37,456 nt of DNA from assembly GCA_017481325.1 (NCBI GenBank), contig JAFUPG010000012.1:1-37456 (forward strand). The letters run 5' to 3'. Origin of the DNA: Oscillospiraceae bacterium. Lineage in GTDB: Bacteria > Bacillota_A > Clostridia > Oscillospirales > Oscillospiraceae. This document shows, one piece after another, positions 9,995 to 34,925 of this stretch (position 1 is the stretch's first letter; each line of letters opens with the position of its first letter). The notes under the pieces are model-generated. The model saw only the letters and a list, made by a program, of their open reading frames with translations. It was not told the DNA's origin and did not search any database. The translations under genes and the position numbers were made by a program.

Positions 9995-10027
9995 AATATT
10001 AGAAAAGAGTGAAGAGGAGCGTTGCTT

Positions 10028-13000
10028 ATGAAATCGACGACCATTCGTTGGCTGGGCTTAGTTCTGGTGCTGTGCCTGCTGCCCTGCCTTCTGACCTTTG
10101 CCCTGGGCGCAGGAAAGGAGCAGCCCCAGCAGCCTGCGGCTACCAGTGGCAACAACGGCGATAATATCACCTGGAGCTACAATACCTACTCCAAGACCCT
10201 GACCATCTCCGGCAGCGGCGGCCTGGCTTATTACGAGTACGCCTGGCGGGATTATCAGTATGAGATCAAAACCGTCGTCATCAATGAGGGTATTGACTAT
10301 ATCTCCGGTAACGTATTTGATGATCACACGGCTTTGGAGACAGTCACCCTGCCGTCCACCCTGGTGGGCATGGATGGGACGGCTTTTGATACCTGCACCG
10401 CCCTGAAGAAATTCACGGTGCGCAGCGGTAACGACTATTTTGCCTCCGACAGCACGGGTATGCTGTACAACGGGGATAAGACCCTCCTGCGGCTGTGTCC
10501 TCCGGCGAAGAGCGGCAGCGTCACCGTCGCCTCTACGGTGACGGAGATCGCAGACCGTGCCTTCCGGAACTGTACCGGCATTACGGAGATCATTCTTCCC
10601 GACGGACTGAAAAAGATCGGCTCTGAGGCTTTCTACGATTGCAAGGGCCTGACCTCCCTGGCTCTGGGGCGCTGGGTATCCTCCCTGGGCAGCGCTGTAT
10701 TTCCCGTCAGCACCAACTTTACCAAGATTTCCGTGAATGTTTGGAATACTTATTTTTCTGCGGACAGCGACGGCGTGCTGTATACCTATGCCAAGACCAT
10801 GGTGATCCGCTGTCCCGCAGGCTATCAGGGCGAGTACACCATGCCCGATACCGTTACCGGCCTGTCAAACGATGCGTTCTATGCCTGCAGCGGCCTTACT
10901 GCCGTCTCCCTGTCTGAAAATCTCACGTCCATTGCCGATACCTCCTTCTACGGCTGCAGAAACCTGGCTACCGTCACCTTCGGCAGTCAGGTGAAATCCA
11001 TCGGCAGCTCTGCTTTCCGTTCCTGCACCTCTCTGGTCGAGGTGGCCTTGCCTGCCTCTGTCGCCGAGTTGGGGAACTATGCTTTCCGTGATTGCAGCGC
11101 TCTGCAGCGTGTCACCGGCGGCAATATTCAGACACTGGGTGTATCGGTCTTTATCAGCTGTAAACAATTACAAGAAGCTCCCTCTCTGGCGGCAATTACG
11201 GAGCTGCCCAACAGTACCTTCCGCTACTGCTCTGCCCTTCGCAGCGTGGAGTTAAGCGACGCTGTTACCTCTGTGGGCACTTATTGCTTTGAGGGGTGCG
11301 AGGTTTTGGAGTTTCCGCCCCTCTGGGAGACCCTGAGCTCCATCGGAACCTACGCTTTCTCCCAGTGTTCAAAAATCCGGGAGGTACATTTTTCGGATCA
11401 GCTCACCTACCTGGGGGACTATGCCTTCACAAAATGCTACGGCCTGAAAAAAGTGAGCTTCGGCACAGGTCTGACCAGCACCGGTAACCACACCTTCGAG
11501 TTTGCCGGCGTGGAAGAGGTAGATTTCGGCAGCACCATTACCACCATCGGCACCTGCAGTTTCGCATCCTGCGACTTCAGAGCCCTGGTGATTCCGCCCA
11601 CCGTCACCAAGATCCAGAGCGAAGCCTTCCGAGCCATCTGGTCAATGTCTGCGGTCAGCCTGCCCAAGACTTTGACCTCCATTGGCAACAATGCCTTCTA
11701 CAATTGCAGCGACCTGAGCCATGTGACTTACAGCGGCACCCAGGAGGAATTTACTGCGGTAAAGGTCTATAGCGGAAACACCGATCTCATGGAGGCCCTC
11801 TGGCACTACGGCGTGGACGGAAGCGGAATTACCGACCACGAGACCTGCTTCCATGACTATTTCTCCTGCGATATCTGCGGAGCGGTCTTCGGATATACCT
11901 ACCGCAGCGGCGCGCACAGCTATGCAGAGGGTGTCTGCACCCGCTGCAATGCGCTCGAATGTCTGACCTACAACCTGAGTTCCGCCTATATGGAGGTCAC
12001 CATTACCGGCGTCAATACGGAGGTGGCCATGCCCTCCACCCTGACCATCCCCGAGACCATCGAGGGCTGTCCCGTGGTCACCATCGGAGACAATGCCCTT
12101 CGCAATCAGGCCGGCCTGGAGATCCTCATCCTCCCTGCCAATCTCCGTGCCATCAACGACTATGCCTTCTGCAACTGCGACGATCTCATGCTGCTCAGCG
12201 TACCCGAAGGTCTTCAGACCATCGGAAACGGCGCATTCCAGAGCTGCGGCAGCCTGTTGAACATCGACCTGCCCAACAGCCTCACCACGCTGGGCAATTC
12301 CGCCTTTGACAGCTGCGGTACAATGCTCTGGGCGGATCTGGGCAACGGCATCCAGAGCCTGGGGGACTATGCCTTCCTGTCCTGCAGCAATCTGGTCAGC
12401 ATCCATCTGGGCAAGCCGACGGCGGTGGGCTACCGGGCCTTCTACGGCTGCGAGAAGCTGAGCCATGTGAGCTACGGCGGCAATGTGACCGATTGGACAG
12501 CGCTTGCCTTCGAGGAGGGCAACGAGCCTCTGAAAAACGCACACCGCCATGACCTCTGCAGCGAGAGCCCCGTGGTCAACTATGTGTCCTGCGGCGGTAT
12601 CTATGCCTACTGTAACTTCTGTGATGCGGCCATCCTCTATATGGAGGGCGGCGGCACCGGCCACTGGTTTGAGGAGGGAATCTGCAAGGTCTGCGGCGTG
12701 CCGGAGTACCTGGAGTATACCATCCACCCCAATGCCTGCACCGCCATTGTGACCGGCCTTAAGAGCCGGGTCTCCCAGGTGGACATTCCCGATACCATTG
12801 AGGGCTTCCCGGTTACCTCCGTCGATTTCCAGGCCTTTGCCTATGATGAGGGGCTGGAGAAGGTCACCATCGGTAACAACGTAACCACCATCGACTCCGG
12901 CGCCTTCCGTGGTTGCGCCAACCTGAAGGAAGTGGTGCTGGGCAACCGGGTCGAGACAATCGGCGGCGCTGCCTTCTATGATTGTGATGCCCTGACCACC

Positions 13001-15547
13001 ATCTATCTGCCGGACTCCGTTAAGGATCTGCAGTCGGCAGCTTTCTGGGATTGCGATGCCCTGGTCTCCGTCACCGGCGGCAACTGCGTGGAGAGTGTCA
13101 CTGCCTCCGCCTTCTACGATTGCGACAGCCTGCTCGGCTTCGAGGGCGGCGAAAATCTGAAAGAAATCGGCAAATATGCCTTCTATCACTGCGATTCCCT
13201 GCAGACTGTGAGCCTGCCCGACAGCCTGACCACCATCGGGGAGTACTGCTTCCAGGATTGCGACAAGCTGGAAAATGTCACCTTTGGCACGGGGCTGAAG
13301 AACCTGGGTACCTATGCCTTCTATGACTGCGATGCCCTGACCGCCGTGGTTTTCCCCGGTGCGCTGGAGCGGATCTGCGAGTATACCTTCTACAGCTGCG
13401 ATGCGCTGCGCTATGTGGATACGGGCAAGGTGGAGGGCTGGATCGAGTTCTATGCCTTTGCGGAATGCAGCGCTCTGGAAGAGCTGGTGATCGGCGGCTC
13501 AACCTATCTGAGAAATGATGCCTTCGCAAATTGCAGCGCCCTGAAGAAGGTCACCATGCCCACCACCCTGGAGTACAGTGACCATGAGGTTTTCACCGGC
13601 TGTGATGCGGTGGAGGAGGTGCATATCACCGATCTGGCCGCCTGGTGTTCCATCCACTTCGGCACCATGTCCGCAACGCCTCTGTGCTACGGCGGCGACC
13701 TGTACCTCAACGGGGAACTGCTGGTGGATTTGGTCATCCCCGAGGGCGTTACCTCCATCGGAAGCTATGCCTTCCTGAACTGTGCGTCCATAGAGACCAT
13801 CTCTCTTCCCTATGGTCTGGAGTCCATTGGTACCAGCACCTTCCACGGCTGCAGTTCTCTGCAGGAGATCTATATCCCCAATACGGTAACCTCGGTTGGA
13901 GGTTTTGCCTTCCGCTATTGTACTTCTCTGACCTATGCGTGGGGTATGCAGGGTCTTACGGCTATTTCCGACGGAATGTTTGACAGCTGCAGCAGCCTGG
14001 TTTCTGCCCGAGTGCCCTACGGCGTAACCTCCATTGGCGCAGCGGCCTATCAGGAGTGCAGCTCTCTGGTCTATGCCTCCCTCCCCTCTACGGTGACCTC
14101 CATTGGCGAGCGTGCCTTTGATCAATGCGAGCGCTTCTGCCATGTCCTCTTCAGCGGCAGCCAGAACACCTGGAAAAAGGTCCAGATAGGCAGTGGCAAT
14201 CCTCTCCTGACCATCGTCACCTTCCACTATGGCGTAAGTGAGGGTATCTTATGGTATGAGATCGAGGGTGCGCTGTATCCCCGCTGCACCATCTGCGACA
14301 CCTACCTGACCGAGCGGCCGCAGTGCTTCCACGACGAAATGCGCCTCTATGATGAGAGAGCGGCCACCTGCACCGAACCCGGCTACACCGGCGACGTGAA
14401 GTGCCTGGTCTGCGGCGATATTGTAGAGCGTGGCCAGGTCATTCCTCCTCTGAACCACCCCGACACCCGTGTAGACGGGAAAATCGAGCCTACCTGCACC
14501 GAGCCCGGCTATTCCGGGGATACCTGGTGCTATCTCTGCGATGCCTATGTCATAGCCGGCGAGACCCTGGAGCCTCTGAACCATCCGGAGCAGGCGTGGG
14601 TCGGTGCCTATGATCCCACCTGTACGGAGCCGGGCTATACCGGCGACCTGCAGTGCCTCACCTGCGGCATCTGCCTGGAGCAGGGCGAGGCCATTGCGGC
14701 AACGGGACATTCTCAGACCGAGTATCGGAACGCAATGGACCCCACCTGCCTGGAAGAGGGCTACACCGGCGACCTCTACTGCGGTGTCTGCGACCAAGTG
14801 CTGGAATACGGCGAGACCATCGAAGCCCTGGGTCACGGCGAGACCTATCTATCCGGTGCCTACGAACCCACCTGCAGTGAGCACGGCTACAGTGGCGATC
14901 TGCGCTGCCTGCGCTGTGACGATATTGTCACCCCCGGTGAGGCCATTGCGCCTGTGGGTCATATCTACGAGAACGGCCTGTGCATCTACTGTGGCGAGGC
15001 AGAGTACGTGGAGATCCCCTTCCTGGACGTGAAGGAGACGGACTACTATGCCAATCCCGTCCTCTGGGCGGTGCAGCAGGGTGTGACCAACGGCACCTCT
15101 CCCACGGAGTTCTCGCCGGAGAAGCCCTGTACCCGTGGGCAGATCGTCACCTTCCTGTGGCGTGCATTCGGTTCTCCGGAGCCGAAAATGGTTGTAAATC
15201 CTTTTACGGACGTCCCCGAGACCATGTATTACTACAAGGCCATTTTGTGGGCGGTAGAGCAGGGGATCACCACCGGTACTTCTGCCACCACCTTCTCCCC
15301 GGAGAGCACCTGTACCCGTGGTCAGGTTGCCACCTTCCTCTGGAGAGCCTGCGGCAAACCTGCACCTGCAACGGGTGAGAATCCCTTCTCCGATGTCAGC
15401 AGCTCTGTCTACTACTACGAGCCCATCTTGTGGGCAGTGGAGCAGGGCATCACCAACGGCACCGGAAACGGCAAATTCTCCCCCGAGGACAGCTGCACCA
15501 GAGGCCAGATCGTCACCTTCCTGTATCGAGCCTTAGCCAAAGAATAA
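10028..15547 (+). CDS. Giant BspA-like LRR surface protein with Cys/His repeats and three SLH domains
   Basis: A 1839-aa protein starting at ATG 10028, 8 nt after GAGGAG. It has a signal peptide (1 to about 28, ending LLTFALGA). Three blocks of about 23-residue leucine-rich repeats of the LRR_5/BspA type (pattern LxSIGxxAFxxCxxLxxVxLP) lie at about 40-595, 660-835 and 895-1400. They are separated by two short linkers with CxxC pairs (about 605-650 and 840-890). Residues about 1405-1655 hold five tandem units of CTEPGYTGDxxCxxC ending in a His, plus a final CxxC. Three SLH units (about 1664-1839) then anchor it to the wall polymer. BspA-like proteins are known in adhesion and host contact; that role is inferred here. 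No enzymatic domain is visible. Confidence 0.93.
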   Translation: MKSTTIRWLGLVLVLCLLPCLLTFALGAGKEQPQQPAATSGNNGDNITWSYNTYSKTLTISGSGGLAYYEYAWRDYQYEIKTVVINEGIDYISGNVFDDHTALETVTLPSTLVGMDGTAFDTCTALKKFTVRSGNDYFASDSTGMLYNGDKTLLRLCPPAKSGSVTVASTVTEIADRAFRNCTGITEIILPDGLKKIGSEAFYDCKGLTSLALGRWVSSLGSAVFPVSTNFTKISVNVWNTYFSADSDGVLYTYAKTMVIRCPAGYQGEYTMPDTVTGLSNDAFYACSGLTAVSLSENLTSIADTSFYGCRNLATVTFGSQVKSIGSSAFRSCTSLVEVALPASVAELGNYAFRDCSALQRVTGGNIQTLGVSVFISCKQLQEAPSLAAITELPNSTFRYCSALRSVELSDAVTSVGTYCFEGCEVLEFPPLWETLSSIGTYAFSQCSKIREVHFSDQLTYLGDYAFTKCYGLKKVSFGTGLTSTGNHTFEFAGVEEVDFGSTITTIGTCSFASCDFRALVIPPTVTKIQSEAFRAIWSMSAVSLPKTLTSIGNNAFYNCSDLSHVTYSGTQEEFTAVKVYSGNTDLMEALWHYGVDGSGITDHETCFHDYFSCDICGAVFGYTYRSGAHSYAEGVCTRCNALECLTYNLSSAYMEVTITGVNTEVAMPSTLTIPETIEGCPVVTIGDNALRNQAGLEILILPANLRAINDYAFCNCDDLMLLSVPEGLQTIGNGAFQSCGSLLNIDLPNSLTTLGNSAFDSCGTMLWADLGNGIQSLGDYAFLSCSNLVSIHLGKPTAVGYRAFYGCEKLSHVSYGGNVTDWTALAFEEGNEPLKNAHRHDLCSESPVVNYVSCGGIYAYCNFCDAAILYMEGGGTGHWFEEGICKVCGVPEYLEYTIHPNACTAIVTGLKSRVSQVDIPDTIEGFPVTSVDFQAFAYDEGLEKVTIGNNVTTIDSGAFRGCANLKEVVLGNRVETIGGAAFYDCDALTTIYLPDSVKDLQSAAFWDCDALVSVTGGNCVESVTASAFYDCDSLLGFEGGENLKEIGKYAFYHCDSLQTVSLPDSLTTIGEYCFQDCDKLENVTFGTGLKNLGTYAFYDCDALTAVVFPGALERICEYTFYSCDALRYVDTGKVEGWIEFYAFAECSALEELVIGGSTYLRNDAFANCSALKKVTMPTTLEYSDHEVFTGCDAVEEVHITDLAAWCSIHFGTMSATPLCYGGDLYLNGELLVDLVIPEGVTSIGSYAFLNCASIETISLPYGLESIGTSTFHGCSSLQEIYIPNTVTSVGGFAFRYCTSLTYAWGMQGLTAISDGMFDSCSSLVSARVPYGVTSIGAAAYQECSSLVYASLPSTVTSIGERAFDQCERFCHVLFSGSQNTWKKVQIGSGNPLLTIVTFHYGVSEGILWYEIEGALYPRCTICDTYLTERPQCFHDEMRLYDERAATCTEPGYTGDVKCLVCGDIVERGQVIPPLNHPDTRVDGKIEPTCTEPGYSGDTWCYLCDAYVIAGETLEPLNHPEQAWVGAYDPTCTEPGYTGDLQCLTCGICLEQGEAIAATGHSQTEYRNAMDPTCLEEGYTGDLYCGVCDQVLEYGETIEALGHGETYLSGAYEPTCSEHGYSGDLRCLRCDDIVTPGEAIAPVGHIYENGLCIYCGEAEYVEIPFLDVKETDYYANPVLWAVQQGVTNGTSPTEFSPEKPCTRGQIVTFLWRAFGSPEPKMVVNPFTDVPETMYYYKAILWAVEQGITTGTSATTFSPESTCTRGQVATFLWRACGKPAPATGENPFSDVSSSVYYYEPILWAVEQGITNGTGNGKFSPEDSCTRGQIVTFLYRALAKE

Positions 15548-28556: not shown

Positions 28557-29702
28557 TTATCGGTTCAGAATTCGGGCGATCAGGGGACGGTGTACCTTCA
28601 GGGCACCTTTGGGGCAGAACTCCTGGCAGCAGAAGCAGCGGATGCACTTCTTTTTGTCGATCTTCGGCTTCTTTTTTACCATGGTAATGGCCTTGGCGGG
28701 GCAGAGACGGGCGCAGCGCAGGCAGCCGATGCAGGCATCGGGCTCCTTCAGCTTGGGGCTGGCCTGGAGGGCTTTTTTGGCGATCTTGCCAAAGACCACA
28801 CCCAATTTCCCCGGCAGGAAGTTCTCAAATTGCAGGCTCTTGTTCTGGGGCGGCAGCACAAAGCCCTCCACCGGGCAGAGCTCTCCCTGTACCTCCACCT
28901 CTTCCGCACTTTGAGGGCAGAGACCACGGTCAAAGGCGGCCTTTAAGGTAGGCACGGCCATGGGTTCTGCGCCGATGAGCTTGGCGCAGACCAGATCCAG
29001 CTTGTGGCAATTCTCTGCAGCTAAAACAGCGCCGATCTTTCGGGGCGTTCCGGCGGTGGGACCGTTGCCCTCCATGCCCATAATGGCATCCACCAGATAC
29101 AGCCGGGGCTTAAAATACTCGTTGAGGTCAATGATCATATCCGCAAAATCCATGGGATTGTGGAAGCGGAAGTGGTACTCCGGCTTCATGGTGCCGGGGA
29201 CAGCGCCGAAGAGGTTCTTGGTGGCGGCGGTCATGGTCATCATGCCGTGGCTCTTCAGCTTGCAGAAGCTGATAATGGCGTCGGCATTTTCCAGATAGTC
29301 CGTGACGGTAAAACTCTTGGCCACCTTGGCCTGGGGGAAGAACACGCTCTTCTGCTCAAAATTGCGGTTCAGCTCCGCACCGACGGCCTCTGCCTCTCCC
29401 AGACCGCAGACGGCGTACACATGATTCAGAACGGTAGCGTTAAAAAGCTGACCGGGGCTGTCGCCGATGACCACATGAGCGCCCTTTTCCTTCAGCAGTT
29501 TGGTCAGAGCGGTCAGCAGCACCGGATGGGTGGTGCCGGCCTTCTCCGGCTTCATGGCCTCCACCAGATTGGCCTTGATGACAATGCGCATACCCTCTCT
29601 GACCCAGTCAAGCCCCCCAAAAGGCTCCATCGCCGCCAAAAGGGCTTGCGTACAGCTCTCCAGCTCATATTCCTCACAGCGAACAACAGATACTTCCGTC
29701 AT
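28557..29702 (-). CDS. DUF362 iron-sulfur protein
   Basis: A 381-aa protein starting at ATG 29702, 6 nt after GGAGG; an upstream in-frame ATG (29747) is in the leader. The N-terminal 300 residues are the DUF362 domain (IVIKANLVEAMKPEKAGTTH, later GDSPGQ and KNLFGAVPG). The C-terminus has two [4Fe-4S] motifs: Cys324/327/330/334 and Cys353/356/359/363. DUF362 ferredoxin-like proteins are frequent in anaerobes and of unknown function, with electron transfer likely. An unknown membrane protein follows 13 bp downstream. Its leader of more than 200 nt carries a dispersed hairpin repeat. Confidence 0.9.
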   Translation of the reverse strand: MTEVSVVRCEEYELESCTQALLAAMEPFGGLDWVREGMRIVIKANLVEAMKPEKAGTTHPVLLTALTKLLKEKGAHVVIGDSPGQLFNATVLNHVYAVCGLGEAEAVGAELNRNFEQKSVFFPQAKVAKSFTVTDYLENADAIISFCKLKSHGMMTMTAATKNLFGAVPGTMKPEYHFRFHNPMDFADMIIDLNEYFKPRLYLVDAIMGMEGNGPTAGTPRKIGAVLAAENCHKLDLVCAKLIGAEPMAVPTLKAAFDRGLCPQSAEEVEVQGELCPVEGFVLPPQNKSLQFENFLPGKLGVVFGKIAKKALQASPKLKEPDACIGCLRCARLCPAKAITMVKKKPKIDKKKCIRCFCCQEFCPKGALKVHRPLIARILNR

Positions 29703-29723
29703 AACAATCCTCCGGAGTGTACA

Positions 29724-29894
29724 GGAAACGGAAATTTTGCGCGGCACTTTGGTGCTGTGAACTAACAGCTAATAGCGAAAAACTAAGAACTAAGGTGTGC
29801 CTCCGGCACGGATTTTAAATCCATCGGCGGAGCCGATACCTCACTTATTAGCTATTCGTTCTTAGCCATTAGTTCTAAGATAAATTTCCCTTTG
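29724..29894. repeat. Dispersed hairpin repeat, copy B
   Basis: About 170 bp in the leader of the DUF362 gene. The left arm (GAACTAACAGCTAATAGCG) and the reverse complement of the right arm (GAACTAATGGCTAAGAACG) match well. Internal hairpins are GTGCCTCCGGCAC, GGATTTTAAATCC and ATCGGCGGAGCCGAT. The right end AAATTTCCCTTTG matches copies A and C after small deletions. The left end is approximate (GAAACGGAAATTTTGCGCGG). Confidence 0.68.
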
Positions 29895-30017: not shown

Positions 30018-30046
30018 TTGCAATTTTGAAGGAAGTTCGATATAAT
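30018..30046 (+). promoter_or_regulatory. Promoter of the ssnA-ygfK operon
   Basis: TTGCAA, 17-bp spacer, TATAAT. Predicted start near 30053, immediately ahead of the structured leader. Confidence 0.82.
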
Positions 30047-30052
30047 AAGATT

Positions 30053-30171
30053 GTAATTGAAGATTGATAGCTGTAACGAAGTGCTTCGCGCACGGGCTTC
30101 CGACTATCACTCAGGGCTACTTGAGTGGAGATGTTGAACTATGCATGTAGGTTCACATCCCCACGTTTTTT
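30053..30171 (+). ncRNA. Putative riboswitch leader with intrinsic terminator ahead of ssnA
   Basis: The leader folds by inspection into three parts. (1) An aptamer-like element: outer helix TGATAG/CTATCA (30065-30070 and 30104-30109) and inner helix GTGC/GCAC (30081-30084 and 30090-30093), enclosing a 10/10-nt internal loop, CTGTAACGAA facing GGGCTTCCGA. (2) An alternative helix, CACTCA/TGAGTG (30108-30113 and 30122-30127), sharing bases with both neighbours. (3) An intrinsic terminator: GTGGAGATG pairing with CATCCCCAC (30125-30133 and 30156-30164) with an inner TGAAC/GTTCA helix, then GTTTTTT at 30165-30171. This matches the architecture of transcription-attenuating riboswitches. I cannot match it to a known class with certainty. 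The downstream purine/urate catabolic genes suggest a purine or urate ligand, an inference. Confidence 0.62.
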
Positions 30172-30197
30172 GTAATTACATTAAGGAGGTCAACCAC

Positions 30198-31538
30198 ATG
30201 TACATTCTTGCCAACGGTAAACTGATCACCAGAAGCGCTACCATCCCCTACCTGCCTGATGGCGGTGTCGTCATTGAGGGCACCAAGATCAAGGAAGTGG
30301 GCACCACCGCCGATCTGAAGGCAAAGTATCCCCAGGCAGAGTTCATTGATGCCAAGGGCGGCGTGATTATGCCTGCGCTCATCAATGCCCATACCCATAT
30401 CTATTCTGCGCTGGCCCGTGGCCTGTCCATCAAGGGCAATAATCCCACCAACTTCTACGAAGTTTTAGACGGCACCTGGTGGGCCATTGACCGCAAGCTG
30501 ATGCTCTCCGGCACCAAGGCCTCTGCAGATGCCCTGTACATCGACTGCATCAAGCAGGGTGTTACAACGATTTTTGACCACCACGCTTCCTATGGCGAGA
30601 TTCCCGGCTCCCTGTTTAAGATCGCTGAGTCTGCCAAGGAGTTTGGCATCCGCTCCTGCCTCTGCTACGAGGTTTCCGACCGTGACGGCGAGGAAAAGTG
30701 CCTCCAGGGCATCAAGGAAAATGCCGACTTCATTACCTGGTGCGAAGAGCAGAAGGATCCTATGCTCAAGGCCATGTTTGGCGGCCACGCACTCTTTACC
30801 ATCTCTGACAAGACCTTTGAGCGTATGGTCGAGGCCAATAACGGTCGTACCGGCTACCATATCCACGTCTCCGAGGGCATGAACGACGTCTATGACTCCC
30901 TGCAGAACTATGGCCGCCGTCCTGTCCAGAGATTGCAGGATCACGGTATCCTGGGCCCCAAGACTATTCTGGGTCACTGCATCCATGTGAACTCCGCCGA
31001 GATCGAGATCATCAAGAGCACCGACACCATGGTGGTCAATAACCCCGAGTCCAACATGGGCAATGCCGTGGGCACCTGCCCCGTGCTGCCCCTGTACAAG
31101 GCCGGCATCCTCCTGGGCATGGGTACCGATGCCTATACCAACGACATGCTGGAGTCCATCAAGGTCGCCCTCTGCGCCCAGCGCCAGAATGCCTGCCTGC
31201 CCAATGTGGGCTGGTGCGAGGTCACGGATATGCTCTTCAAGAACAACGCCCTCATCGGCGCCCGTTACTTCGACGAGAAGCTGGGTGTGCTGGAGGCCGG
31301 CGCTGCCGCTGACGTGATCGTCATGGACTACAAGCCCTTCACCCCCTTCTCCGACGCCAATATCGACGGCCATATACTCTTCGGCATGACCGGCCGCCAG
31401 TGCCAGACCACCATCGGCAACGGTAAGCTCCTCATGAAGGACCGTGAGCTGGTAGGCATCGACGAGGAAGCCGTCAATGCCCGTATTCTGGAAGAGTCCA
31501 AGAAGCTCTGGACCGCCCTCAACGGCTGCGCCTACTAA
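30198..31538 (+). CDS. ssnA: Putative aminohydrolase SsnA
   Basis: A 446-aa amidohydrolase-superfamily enzyme starting at ATG 30198, 7 nt after AAGGAGGT. An ATG at 30141 lies inside the leader terminator and is rejected. Metal-site residues are in NAHTHIYS (His65, His67), GYHIHVSEG (His221, His223), ILGHCIHV (His260) and GTDAYTND (Asp311). SsnA is known from the E. coli selenium/purine cluster (ygfK-ssnA and neighbours), and homologous clusters in gut anaerobes are needed for anaerobic urate/purine breakdown; its exact reaction, probably a deamination or ring hydrolysis, is not settled. It is the first gene behind the putative riboswitch. Confidence 0.9.
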   Translation: MYILANGKLITRSATIPYLPDGGVVIEGTKIKEVGTTADLKAKYPQAEFIDAKGGVIMPALINAHTHIYSALARGLSIKGNNPTNFYEVLDGTWWAIDRKLMLSGTKASADALYIDCIKQGVTTIFDHHASYGEIPGSLFKIAESAKEFGIRSCLCYEVSDRDGEEKCLQGIKENADFITWCEEQKDPMLKAMFGGHALFTISDKTFERMVEANNGRTGYHIHVSEGMNDVYDSLQNYGRRPVQRLQDHGILGPKTILGHCIHVNSAEIEIIKSTDTMVVNNPESNMGNAVGTCPVLPLYKAGILLGMGTDAYTNDMLESIKVALCAQRQNACLPNVGWCEVTDMLFKNNALIGARYFDEKLGVLEAGAAADVIVMDYKPFTPFSDANIDGHILFGMTGRQCQTTIGNGKLLMKDRELVGIDEEAVNARILEESKKLWTALNGCAY

Positions 31539-31544
31539 TTGCCC

Positions 31545-31955
31545 ATGCTCAGCGCATCGGAAAATTTTTGCAAGTGGACGCTGCTGGGGTTACTGATTAC
31601 ATCTTTGTTTCTGCCGGTTATCCTGATCGTAAAACTGGATCTGCTGCATACCACCTATGTCTTTGATGCGCTTCTCTTCATTATGCTGGTGGTTACCACC
31701 GTCCAGGCCATCCCCGGCCTGATCGGCTGGTTTATGCTCCATCGCTACGATGAACGGGGCAAGAAGGTGCTCTCCCGCACCTATCTCACCACCCTGGCGG
31801 TTTACAGCCTCTACAGCGTTTTCCTGCAGATCACGCTGCTCTTCCCCGGCACCTTTTATATCTTCCCCTTTGAGATCGTCTGCATTTGCTATCTGCTTTT
31901 CTTCAATGTTGCGGTTTTCGTCCTGAAGCACTTCTGGACACGTGACGTATACTAA
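31545..31955 (+). CDS. Unknown four-helix membrane protein between ssnA and ygfK
   Basis: A 136-aa protein with four hydrophobic helices (about 14-31, 40-62, 82-103, 106-127) and a short basic C-terminus (KHFWTRDVY). It begins at ATG 31545, 7 bp after the ssnA stop, with a TTG at 31539 as an alternative. There is no clear ribosome-binding site, so translation is probably coupled to ssnA. It ends 21 bp before ygfK. I do not recognise a family. Its position in a purine-catabolic operon suggests a transport-related or scaffold role, but nothing in the sequence proves it. Confidence 0.72.
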   Translation: MLSASENFCKWTLLGLLITSLFLPVILIVKLDLLHTTYVFDALLFIMLVVTTVQAIPGLIGWFMLHRYDERGKKVLSRTYLTTLAVYSLYSVFLQITLLFPGTFYIFPFEIVCICYLLFFNVAVFVLKHFWTRDVY

Positions 31956-31976: not shown

Positions 31977-34925
31977 ATGTCTGAAAGAATGTATCCCATT
32001 CCCTTTAAGGATCTCATGCGCTGGGTGATCACCGAGCGTGAAAAGACCGGCGAGATCTTCGGCATCCATACCGAGTACAAGGCTGATCCCACCAAGACCC
32101 TCCCCATCTTCGGTGAGAAGATCGAAACCCCCTTCGGCCCCGCTGCCGGCCCCAACAGCCAGCTGGCCCAGAATATTATCGCCTCCTATGTGGCAGGCGC
32201 CCGTTTCTTCGAGGTCAAGACCGTCCAGCAGATGGACGGCGAGGATCTGGCACGCTGCGTGCCCCGTCCCTGCATCCTGGCCGATGACGAAGGCTACAAC
32301 CAGGAGTGGTCCACGGAGCTGGAAGTCCGTCAGGCTCTGGATGAGTACATCAAGGCCTGGTGCGCTCTGAAGGTCATGGCAAAGGTCTGGGGCTACGGCG
32401 ATCCCGATGGCTTTGTGTTCAATATGTCTGTAGGCTACGACCTGGCCGGTATCAAGGGCGAGAAGATCGATAACTACATCGAGTCCATGAAGGATGCCAA
32501 CCGTGCTCCCGTCTTTGCCGAGTGTAAGGCGGTTCTCACGGAGCTCTTCCCCGAGGAGGCAGAGTTCATTGCCAATATCTCCCCCCGTGTCTCCCGTTCC
32601 GTCACCCTGTCTACCCTCCACGGCTGTCCTCCCGATGAGATCGAGCGCATTGCCTCCTACCTCATCACCGAGAAGAAGGTCAATACCTTCGTCAAGTGCA
32701 ACCCCACCATCCTGGGCTACAAGGATGCACGCAGCATCTTAGACGGCATGGGCTATGACTACATCGTCTTTGACGATCACCACTTCAACGAAGACCTGCA
32801 GTGGGCGGATGCCGTTCCCATGTTCGAGCGCCTCCAGGCCCTGGCAGACAAGCAGGGTGTGGAATTCGGCCTGAAGCTGTCCAACACCTTCCCCGTAGAC
32901 ACCACCCGTGGGGAGCTGCCCAATAATGAAATGTATATGTCCGGCCGTGCCCTCTTCCCCCTGACCATTGAGATGTGCCGTCGGATCTCCACCCAGTTTG
33001 GCGGCAAGATGAAGATCTCCTTCGCCGGTGGCGCTGAGTTCTTCAACTGCGAGAAGCTCTTTGCCGCAGGCATTTGGCCCATCACCGTGGCTACCACCAT
33101 CCTGAAGCCCGGTGGCTACAACCGTCTGGTGCAGATGGCCAAGAAGGTGGAGGGCATGGAGTTCAAGCCCTTTGAGGGCACCGACACCGAAGCCATCGCC
33201 AAGATGGCACTGGACTGCCGCACCGACTACCACCATGTCAAGCCCATCAAGCCCCTGCCCACCCGTAAGAACGAGGACAGAGTGCCCTGGATGGATTGCT
33301 ATATCGCTCCCTGTAAGGGTGGCTGCCCCATTGAGCAGGATATCCCCGAGTACATCGAGCTGTGCAAGAAGGGTCTGTACAACGAGGCGCTGAAGCTCAT
33401 CACCGAGAAGAACGCCCTGCCCTTCATCACCGGTACCATCTGCGCCCACCACTGCATGAACAAGTGCAGCCGCAACTTCTATGAAGAGCCGGTACAGATC
33501 CGTGAGACCAAGCTCATCGCTGCGGAAAAGGGCATCGATGCCCTCATGGCCAAGATCGAAAAGCCTGCCAAGGTCGAGGGCAAGAAGGCTGCCATCATCG
33601 GCGGCGGCCCCACCGGCATTGCTGCTGCCTACTTCCTGGGCAGAGCCGGTGTGGAATGCACCATTTTCGAGCGCAAGGATTCCCTGGGCGGCATTGTCCG
33701 TCATGTGATCCCCGAGTTCCGTATCTCCCACGAGGCCATTGATCAGGACATCGCTCTGATGATGGCCTACGGCACCGAGGTCAAGCTCAATACCGAGGCT
33801 CCCTCTGTGGAAGAGCTGAAGGCACAGGGCTATACCCACATCCTCTATGCCGTGGGTGCCTGGAAGGCCGGTAAGCTGGATATCCCCGGCAATGTCAAGG
33901 GTGTCATTGGCTGGATGGAGGATATGAAGGCAGGCCGTGGCGGCGAGCTGGGTCATGTAGCCGTCATCGGCGGCGGAAACACCGCCATGGACGCAGCCCG
34001 TGTGGCAAAGCGTGCCGGTGCCAAGTCCTCCACCCTGGTCTACCGCCGTACCAAGCGCTATATGCCTGCCGATGCAGAGGAACTGGAGCTGGCCATTGAG
34101 GATGGCGTGGAGTTCCTGGAGCTGGTCTCCCCCGTGGAGCAGAAGGACGGCAAGCTGATCTGCGACAAGATGATCCTGGGCGAGCCCGATGCCTCCGGCA
34201 GACGGAGCCCCGTTCCCACCGGCGAGCGTGTGGAGATCGATTGCGATCTGGTCATCTCCGCCGTGGGTGAGCAGGTGGACGACAAGCTCTTCGCCGCCAA
34301 CGGCATCGAGCTGGATCGCAAGGGTCGTCCCGCCTTCAAGACCAACCTGGAGAATGTCTACTCCGCCGGTGATGCAACCCGTGGCCCCGCCACCGTAGTA
34401 GAGGGCATTGCCGATGCCGCCAAGTTTGCCGAGATCGTCATCGGCAGGAAGCACGAGTACGACATCCCTGTAGAAGCCTATCCCTCCGAGGCCGCTGCCA
34501 TTGCCAAGAAGGGCATCCTGGCCATGGCCAAGGACGTGGCCTGTGAGGGCGACCGCTGCCTGGATTGCAACACCGTCTGCCAGAACTGCGCCGATGTCTG
34601 CCCCAACCGCTCCAATGTGGTCATCCGCCTGCCCGACGGCCGTACCCAGATCCTCCACGTGGATAAGATGTGCAACGAGTGCGGCAACTGCACCGCCTTC
34701 TGTCCCTACGCTGCAGAGCCCTGTAAGGATAAGTTCACCATCTTCCAGACCGAGAAGGATATGGACGACTCCAAGAACTTCGGCTTCTGCATCCTGGCTG
34801 ACGGCAAGGTGCGTGTCCGTCTCTACACCGAGTGCGTCTGCGATGTAGAAGGCGAAAACGAGCTCCCCGAGGAGATCGCCCTCTTCATCCGCACCGTCAA
34901 GAACGACTACAGCTACCTGTACTGA
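31977..34925 (+). CDS. ygfK: YgfK-like iron-sulfur flavoprotein
   Basis: A 982-aa protein, slightly shorter than the E. coli ~1030-aa protein. Domains in order: an N-terminal dihydroorotate-dehydrogenase-like barrel (about 1-420); a cysteine-rich domain (about 440-510; CYIAPCKGGCPI and ICAHHCMNKC); a FAD/NAD(P)-binding oxidoreductase like the glutamate synthase small subunit (GGGPTGIAAA about 542, IGGGNTAMDAARVAK about 664, YSAGDATRGPATVVEGIADA); and a C-terminal ferredoxin-like part (CLDCNTVCQNCADVCP about 861-876, and CNECGNCTAFCP about 900-911). It is thought to reduce a purine-derived intermediate with NAD(P)H. A GGAGG site lies 7 nt before ATG 31977. Last gene of the operon. Confidence 0.93.
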   Translation: MSERMYPIPFKDLMRWVITEREKTGEIFGIHTEYKADPTKTLPIFGEKIETPFGPAAGPNSQLAQNIIASYVAGARFFEVKTVQQMDGEDLARCVPRPCILADDEGYNQEWSTELEVRQALDEYIKAWCALKVMAKVWGYGDPDGFVFNMSVGYDLAGIKGEKIDNYIESMKDANRAPVFAECKAVLTELFPEEAEFIANISPRVSRSVTLSTLHGCPPDEIERIASYLITEKKVNTFVKCNPTILGYKDARSILDGMGYDYIVFDDHHFNEDLQWADAVPMFERLQALADKQGVEFGLKLSNTFPVDTTRGELPNNEMYMSGRALFPLTIEMCRRISTQFGGKMKISFAGGAEFFNCEKLFAAGIWPITVATTILKPGGYNRLVQMAKKVEGMEFKPFEGTDTEAIAKMALDCRTDYHHVKPIKPLPTRKNEDRVPWMDCYIAPCKGGCPIEQDIPEYIELCKKGLYNEALKLITEKNALPFITGTICAHHCMNKCSRNFYEEPVQIRETKLIAAEKGIDALMAKIEKPAKVEGKKAAIIGGGPTGIAAAYFLGRAGVECTIFERKDSLGGIVRHVIPEFRISHEAIDQDIALMMAYGTEVKLNTEAPSVEELKAQGYTHILYAVGAWKAGKLDIPGNVKGVIGWMEDMKAGRGGELGHVAVIGGGNTAMDAARVAKRAGAKSSTLVYRRTKRYMPADAEELELAIEDGVEFLELVSPVEQKDGKLICDKMILGEPDASGRRSPVPTGERVEIDCDLVISAVGEQVDDKLFAANGIELDRKGRPAFKTNLENVYSAGDATRGPATVVEGIADAAKFAEIVIGRKHEYDIPVEAYPSEAAAIAKKGILAMAKDVACEGDRCLDCNTVCQNCADVCPNRSNVVIRLPDGRTQILHVDKMCNECGNCTAFCPYAAEPCKDKFTIFQTEKDMDDSKNFGFCILADGKVRVRLYTECVCDVEGENELPEEIALFIRTVKNDYSYLY

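Follow-up and report, generated by a model that had tools for sequence, protein, structure and literature searches.

The window analyzed in this work, that is, the whole stretch of 37,456 nucleotides, carries the genes ssnA and ygfK (Table 1), which encode an aminohydrolase of the reductive urate pathway and the reductase acting before SsnA, respectively; the profile search with the SsnA protein was started at an upstream in-frame ATG at position 30141. A 138-aa hydrophobic ORF, with no Pfam match at 1e-5, lies between the two genes, and among the loci compared at that stage a nucleotide match across this ORF was found only in locus L005. Upstream of the ssnA leader, a divergent gene encodes a DUF362 protein with a 4Fe-4S ferredoxin domain. 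Close to the ssnA promoter, on its upstream side, is a strong imperfect palindrome that resembles an element of the MITE or repetitive palindromic type; the single-strand DNA fold of positions 29755-29885 has a z of -5.6, with 0 of 200 shuffles as good. The window also encodes a protein of 1841 aa in which BspA-type leucine-rich repeats are combined with S-layer homology domains.

Table 1. Features of the ssnA leader and of its surroundings in the window
Feature	Position	Strand	Remarks
Protein with leucine-rich repeats	10022-15547		1841 aa
DUF362 gene	28557-29747		divergent
Imperfect palindrome	29759-29875		
Promoter	30018..30046	+	-35 TTGCAA, 17-nt spacer, -10 TATAAT; 10/12 consensus matches
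RF03031 (ssnA RNA) match	30061..30108	+	full length, 1-48/48; 61.3 bits, gathering score 37.3
P1' helix, UGAUAG/CUAUCA	30065-30070/30104-30109	+	alternative to P1; equals the outer helix of the original prediction
Outer helix as first drawn, GATAG/CTATC	30066-30070/30104-30108	+	six pairs if the adjacent T-A is counted
Aptamer core	30069..30098	+	compensatory changes in P1 and P2
P1, AGCU/GGCU	30069-30072/30095-30098	+	pairs A-U, G-C, C-G, U.G
UGUAA pentamer (UGNAA)	30072..30076	+	putatively T-loop-like; third position freely variable
P2, GTGC/GCAC (inner helix as first drawn)	30081-30084/30090-30093	+	sequence reading; conserved loop GNAASGDA, unpaired G30094 in core
Antiterminator hairpin, CACUCAGG/CUUGAGUG	30108..30127	+	built by hand
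Intrinsic terminator	30125-30164	+	bulged; G next, then T6 at 30166-30171
Shine-Dalgarno AAGGAGG	30183-30189	+	
ssnA start codon ATG	30198-30200	+	
ssnA	30198..31538	+	NF005540, 631 bits (cut-off 444); TIGR03314
ORF between ssnA and ygfK	31539-31955		138 aa
ygfK	31977..34925	+	TIGR03315, 1275 bits (cut-off 835)

The 5' end of the leader RNA is estimated to lie near position 30053. The promoter that had been proposed ahead of it is found, as a consensus match only; a scan of 9.5 kb returned 8 promoter-like sites, with 5.4 expected. In the leader itself, the two helices of the original prediction and the 10/10 internal loop between them (CTGTAACGAA opposite GGGCTTCCGA) are seen in the sequence as drawn. 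The alternative helix CACTCAGG/CTTGAGTG (arms 30108-30115/30120-30127), which is the antiterminator of Table 1, indeed overlaps both of its neighbors, sharing two nucleotides (30108-30109) with the six-pair outer helix, here called P1', and three (30125-30127) with the terminator. The terminator and its T6 tract are likewise confirmed. This terminator is absent from the output of a simple terminator scan, probably because of its bulges. The leader thus has the layout of an attenuator, as had been suggested. Its folding energy is ordinary, with a z of -1.23 and 18 of 200 shuffles equally stable, and was dropped as evidence; the case therefore rests on comparison with related sequences rather than on energy.

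A covariance search against Rfam, which had been proposed as a check, identifies the leader as a member of a catalogued family, the ssnA RNA (RF03031), and confirms the observation of a structured leader at 30053-30171. The match (cmscan E 8.6e-15) is the one Rfam covariance-model match in the whole window; it scores above the gathering score, it lies upstream of ssnA, and its P1 and P2 helices covary (see below). RF03031 is typed as Cis-reg in Rfam, and the RNA was reportedly first described by Weinberg et al. in 2017 in a survey of 224 candidate structured RNAs. No ligand or function was named for the motif in the literature searched, a subset of PMC. In a permissive Rfam scan of 401 bases nothing besides the ssnA RNA appeared at E ≤ 1, so that neither the three-way-junction purine riboswitch nor the NMT1 xanthine riboswitch is matched at this threshold, and both classes were rejected. 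The former result agrees with the original prediction, where the purine-riboswitch consensus had not been seen. The latter contradicts the proposal of a Firmicutes relative of NMT1 or a new class: since the element is already in Rfam, it is not of a new kind, and no new class is needed to account for it. Taken as a whole, the earlier interpretation holds for the attenuator, the purine context, and the covariation, and fails for the class assignment and for the helix that was taken to be conserved.

The two rejected classes nevertheless bear a likeness to the ssnA RNA. The guanine, adenine, and xanthine riboswitches operate in a purine context with a terminator-type platform, as in the ssnA leader; the ssnA RNA differs from them in having no three-way junction. 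According to the accessible text of the NMT1 paper (PMC7373994), NMT1 is similar in its context of oxidized-purine metabolism and in being a small two-stem RNA, and it differs in being proteobacterial, likely translational, and an OFF switch.

The relatives of the leader were collected in several samples. A pattern scan with one genome per species gave 89 stretches, of which 61 with a fuller core were kept and 28 were set aside, and a search of one family found the RNA in 110 of 400 genomes at E ≤ 0.001, in 103 of them over the cut-off. The pooled set comprises 164 loci with the core, 126 of them unique, and 125 with enough 5' flank for the counts below; L186 and L188 were left out for having no core, and L023, whose 5' flank is missing, is not among the 125. 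Two pattern matches in viral contigs were discarded, as the conserved P2 is missing from them. The named pattern-scan matches with the core come from organisms whose family or genus name places them in the Oscillospiraceae, from records of unclassified Clostridia or Bacillota, and from one uncultured bacterium. The nearest relative of the window is L005, from a goat-gut Oscillospiraceae MAG, with 93-94% identity over two aligned stretches.

Of 90 distinct core strings, 60 were chosen by hand (alignment A1) for a model (R1), which found the ssnA RNA in 16 of 394 genomes of the order, in 22 of 367 of a second family, and in 1 of 391 of the class, this one being the centre genome itself. The matches lie in two families of one order; as these are samples searched under strict filters, the RNA may also be present elsewhere. 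In the first-family sample of 400 genomes, 103 have both the RNA and a full-length SsnA, 7 the RNA alone, 25 SsnA alone, and 265 neither; a detectable ssnA RNA is thus absent from 25 of the 128 ssnA-bearing genomes of this sample. The 26 ssnA leaders of those 25 genomes show no clear aptamer, the best score being 14.9 bits in L212. This weak aptamer-like element (230-266 on the reverse strand of L212) has an AUGACC/GGUCAU helix followed by a U-tract.

The core consensus reads GCUG-N-AA-S-G-D-A-GUGY...RCAC-G-GGCU, where S is rarely A and the terminal loop of P2 has 5-6 nt. In alignment A2, in which 25 sequences were added to A1 to give 85 distinct ones from both families, P1, with five pairs of which the outermost is optional, and P2, with four, are paired in 97.0% of the cells. 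Two-sided changes amount to 24 cells, compared with 6.7 (sd 3.3) in shuffles and up to 17 in slid controls, and the covariation score of 0.198 compares with 0.140 in shuffles, 0 of 500 of which reach it, and with at most 0.057 in slid versions. Four pairs show a two-sided change, a number reached in 24 of 500 shuffles. The sequences behind these figures are related rather than independent, and they were recruited with core-based models. Within P1, the A-U pair is replaced by G-U (30), G-C (11), and U-A (1), and the G-C pair by A-U three times; the CCAACU/GGGUUGG helix of L232 is an example of a compensated P1. The compensatory changes in P1 and P2 across related genomes of the order bear out the covariation that had been proposed as a further check.

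The internal loop of the original prediction is therefore to be read differently: it is present, while the conserved P1 pairing AGCU/GGCU sits inside it, so that it is not wholly unpaired. Conversely, GATAG/CTATC is not a conserved helix of the aptamer and was rejected as such, since CTATC is present in just 67 of the 125 unique sequences, that is, in one platform type only. This P1' helix is best read as a ligand-free alternative to P1.

Two elements of the core stand out. The U.G pair (U30072-G30095 in the window) is invariant in 85 of 85 cases, a constancy that suggests something other than an ordinary pair. In the pentamer UGNAA, the third position is U in 89, C in 27, A in 6, and G in 3 of the 125 unique sequences, and the other four bases are invariant. 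On the basis of a description of the T-loop motif (PMC4810234, in its accessible part), we hypothesize that this element is T-loop-like and could hold a stacked purine. The structural analogy is with the yjdF riboswitch, in which planar ligands occupy a T-loop-like gap according to the available portion of the source (PMC10987639); UGNAA could offer the same.

The platform of the window is of the type with CTATC 3' of the core, found in the 67 sequences mentioned above, the window included. In all 67, CTATC can form P1', with 5-9 pairs, with the strand that leads into P1; the bases common to P1 and P1' are A-G, plus U in sequences that form the optional fifth pair of P1. Both further hairpins were found by script in 61 of the 67. 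In the other six, which include the window, the gapless rule detects no terminator, and the window was analyzed by hand instead. In 57 of the 61, one or more nucleotides of the antiterminator foot also belong to P1', and in 59 of the 61 the antiterminator and the terminator have at least one nucleotide in common; the antiterminator picked by the script is not always the same hairpin across sequences. The overlaps reach 5-6 nt in L191, L194, and L195, compared with 2 and 3 nt in the window.

The calculations show that the minimum-energy structure of the window leader, at -32.0, consists of P1' and the terminator. When the aptamer is forced, the terminator state has an energy of -26.0 kcal/mol and the antiterminator state one of -25.4 kcal/mol, i.e., the terminator is still favored, and the probabilities of its four foot pairs decrease modestly, in the ON direction, from 0.61-0.94 to 0.48-0.84. 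In the 61 relatives the same constraint lowers the mean foot-pair probability from 0.88 to 0.73; 37 of them show a decrease exceeding 0.1, and a single one shows an increase of that size. The modeled coupling of the window would thus point to ON, weakly at equilibrium. As the terminator stays favored at equilibrium, such a switch would need folding order, namely a head start of the antiterminator during transcription.

The direction of switching is better seen in the relatives with other platforms. The remaining 58 first-family sequences were sorted by eye, after the sequences had been viewed. In 26 of them, part of the aptamer, namely its 3' half, its 5' half, or P2, supplies the terminator stem. 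For these 26, the duplex of the core with the arm that precedes the U-tract has a median energy of -25.0 kcal/mol, compared with -11.0 for the 59 sequences counted out of the 67 of the CTATC type; in shuffles, 14 of the 26 reach p ≤ 0.01 and the other 12 fall short. In the second family, the aptamer 5' half pairs with the terminator arm and the first bases of the U-run in runs of 20 pairs, G.U included; the median is -20.7, and 8 of 31 copies have p ≤ 0.01 while 23 do not. In places the terminator finder, and likewise the duplex computation, picks over-long hairpins or later U-runs (L055, L094).

A third design, assigned by eye to 24 first-family sequences and 10 second-family copies, has the antiterminator directly after P1, and in some cases an element of the antiterminator loop is complementary to the aptamer 5' strand. 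An anti-aptamer test of these gave a mean z of -1.32 (n = 34), with p ≤ 0.05 in 10 of the 34 and not in the other 24, which is a lead rather than proof because the shuffles were single-base and the sequences are related. Seven sequences of the L020 type have the terminator right after P1, with no overlap with the aptamer found, and L174 fits none of the types. In the relatives with other platforms, the aptamer fold and the platform fold are thus mutually exclusive where aptamer strands make up the terminator, which does not extend to the seven L020-type sequences.

A terminator made from aptamer strands implies that the folded aptamer must exclude termination and, hence, that the ligand would turn expression on. 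The original prediction held that ON or OFF could not be read from the leader; the aptamer-built terminators of the relatives, which are the main ground here, point to ON. As read from the sequences, the comparative case for this direction is good for the relatives but modest for the platform of the window itself.

Compared with the Rfam family, the RNAs considered here share the core, P1, P2, the place before ssnA, and, in the window, the full-length match above the gathering score. They differ in that the flanks of the Rfam consensus are of the P1' type, while many relatives have other flanks and platforms, and in that some have other target genes or tandem copies. Two copies in one leader occur in 7 of the 22 RNA-bearing genomes of the second-family sample. 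In genome G1060 two aptamer-terminator units lie 169 nt apart, followed by ssnA-ygfK and a third gene that resembles hyuA by eye. Tandem arrangements are known among riboswitches, as described in the accessible part of PMC9481103.

Taking the above together, we propose the following mechanism for the window. In the ligand-free state, the 5' strand of the aptamer would pair outward as P1' (UGAUAG/CUAUCA), which would take two bases from the antiterminator foot, so that this hairpin could not reach into the terminator; the terminator (GUGG...CCAC-T6) would then form and keep ssnA-ygfK off. Binding of the ligand would stabilize P1 (AGCU/GGCU) together with P2 and free CUAUCAC. Being transcribed ahead of the terminator, the antiterminator would then form fully and take GUG of the terminator foot, with the result that more polymerases would read through into ssnA-ygfK.

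The same mutually exclusive folds could instead be controlled by a protein, i.e., an antiterminator of the BglG/SacY kind acting on RAT hairpins, or an ANTAR protein, binding the RNA. Both kinds of site are small hairpins exclusive with a terminator, a likeness to the ssnA leader, and RAT elements in particular are hairpins of ~30 nt with internal loops that overlap a terminator, a layout that speaks for such a protein. ANTAR domains are present in 8 of the 12 RNA-bearing genomes searched, and CAT_RBD in 3 of the 12. The partner domains are, however, not found in several RNA-bearing genomes: CAT_RBD in 9 of the 12, ANTAR in 4 of the 12, and neither of the two in G001, G009, G039, and G298, some of the assemblies being possibly incomplete. 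On these counts neither was retained as a universal partner. In addition, ANTAR sites have paired hexaloops, unlike the terminal loop of P2 with its 5-6 nt, and the regulator frequently found next to the RNA, with PAS_6 and HTH_22 domains, is of the DNA-binding type. With the search covering these two domains, we regard a protein partner as unlikely. The PAS_6/HTH_22 regulator has 22 cluster members beside the RNA in the 126 loci, e.g., upstream in L020; in the loci inspected it is encoded on the other strand, and it possibly represents a second control layer.

The identity of the putative ligand can be approached through the genes behind the RNA. In 149 of the 164 loci (117 of the 126 unique ones) the core is followed by ssnA at a distance of at most 279 nt, and ssnA is the next gene in 27 of the 31 second-family copies; as long antisense ORFs made the gene calling noisy, it was checked with tblastn. 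Other targets are seen in those exceptions where the contig does not simply end: hyuA follows one copy in L095 (TIGR02033) and, by eye, L103. A gene of the threonine synthase family lies directly before the hyuA-linked RNA of L095 (1582-2817, reverse strand) and might encode a lyase of the end of the pathway. In L252 the RNA is followed by an NCS2 permease and then by a Se-dependent xanthine dehydrogenase (XDH); this permease is nearest to xanthine permeases, with 322 bits, below the curated cut-off of 414, and satisfies Pfam Xan_ur_permease. A Bmp/PnrA-like transporter lipoprotein lies directly behind the RNA in L254, and YgeY, YgeW, and a purine permease adjoin it in a few loci. A gene resembling the Se-dependent XDH is on the same strand in 10 of the 126 loci; one fragment was named, with 813 bits against a cut-off of 830. 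The purine/urate context originally proposed for the leader is thus supported.

In the reductive urate pathway, described in 2025, XdhD converts urate to yanthine by reduction, the ring of which is opened by YgfK with SsnA before HyuA acts (PMC12507026). The regulation of the urate genes is called poorly understood in the available portion of this paper, in which the word riboswitch does not occur, and the accessible part of another (PMC12990295) reports that ygfK and ssnA are induced by urate in gut bacteria. An RNA that activates uptake, XDH, and ring opening would be expected to respond to a purine at the entry of the pathway, i.e., urate, xanthine, or yanthine. The likeliest ligand would be an oxidized purine feeding the pathway, with urate first, followed by xanthine or yanthine (2,8-dioxopurine). 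The case for a purine ligand, made from gene contexts, is fair, and urate, xanthine, and yanthine are all candidates.

A riboswitch responding to a compound other than a purine would place the same RNA under a downstream intermediate (ureidomethyl-hydantoin, diureidopropionate) or a pathway cofactor such as molybdopterin, a selenium species, or a reduced pyridine nucleotide. It is suggested by the selenium link with which ssnA, ygfK, and XDH are named in NCBIfam, and by Intestinimonas, where the RNA stands before a pair of genes (families NF004862 and TIGR01316) that we label Nfn-like. However, a sensor of molybdenum or selenium does not fit the Nfn-like pair and the hyuA targets. Furthermore, the purine permease and XDH of L252 and the Bmp/PnrA-like transporter of L254 directly behind the RNA fit the sensing of an imported purine, which makes a ligand of this other kind rather improbable. 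A repressing riboswitch, in which the ligand would promote termination, could draw on the antiterminator-loop type, whose antiterminator starts directly after P1 so that by hand inspection an extended P1 could vie with the antiterminator foot for bases, on the weak equilibrium coupling of the window toward ON, and on the OFF switching of the NMT1 xanthine riboswitches (PMC7373994, accessible text), but a folded aptamer and a terminator built of its strands exclude each other, the target genes degrade the candidate ligands, and ygfK and ssnA are reported to be induced by urate (PMC12990295, accessible part), so that we consider it very improbable.

We thus find it probable, on comparative sequence grounds and with moderate confidence, that the leader is an RF03031 riboswitch of the ON type that acts by antitermination in response to an oxidized purine (urate, xanthine, or 2,8-dioxopurine). 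A wider proposal, which we put forward tentatively and judge somewhat less than even, is that the ssnA RNAs form a new riboswitch class that turns purine destruction on. They would recognize urate or yanthine through a T-loop-like pocket in an aptamer of ~30 nt, sometimes as tandem digital switches, and would control a regulon leading from uptake (permease, Bmp) through the Se-dependent XDH to YgfK and SsnA and on to HyuA.

The ssnA motif has been catalogued without a ligand in the literature searched, and the mechanism and ligand class of the RNA are not described in the papers covered (a PMC subset), while the pathway of its genes was described in 2025 (PMC12507026, available portion). Joining the motif and the pathway provides a short list of ligands and a direction of switching. 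If the proposal is true, it would supply a riboswitch class that switches purine degradation on, filling a gap noted in the accessible text of the NMT1 paper, namely that oxidized-purine degradation genes are lacking among the targets of NMT1 (PMC7373994). Such a class would act in gut bacteria with urate-consuming genes and would offer a ready sensor for urate or yanthine.
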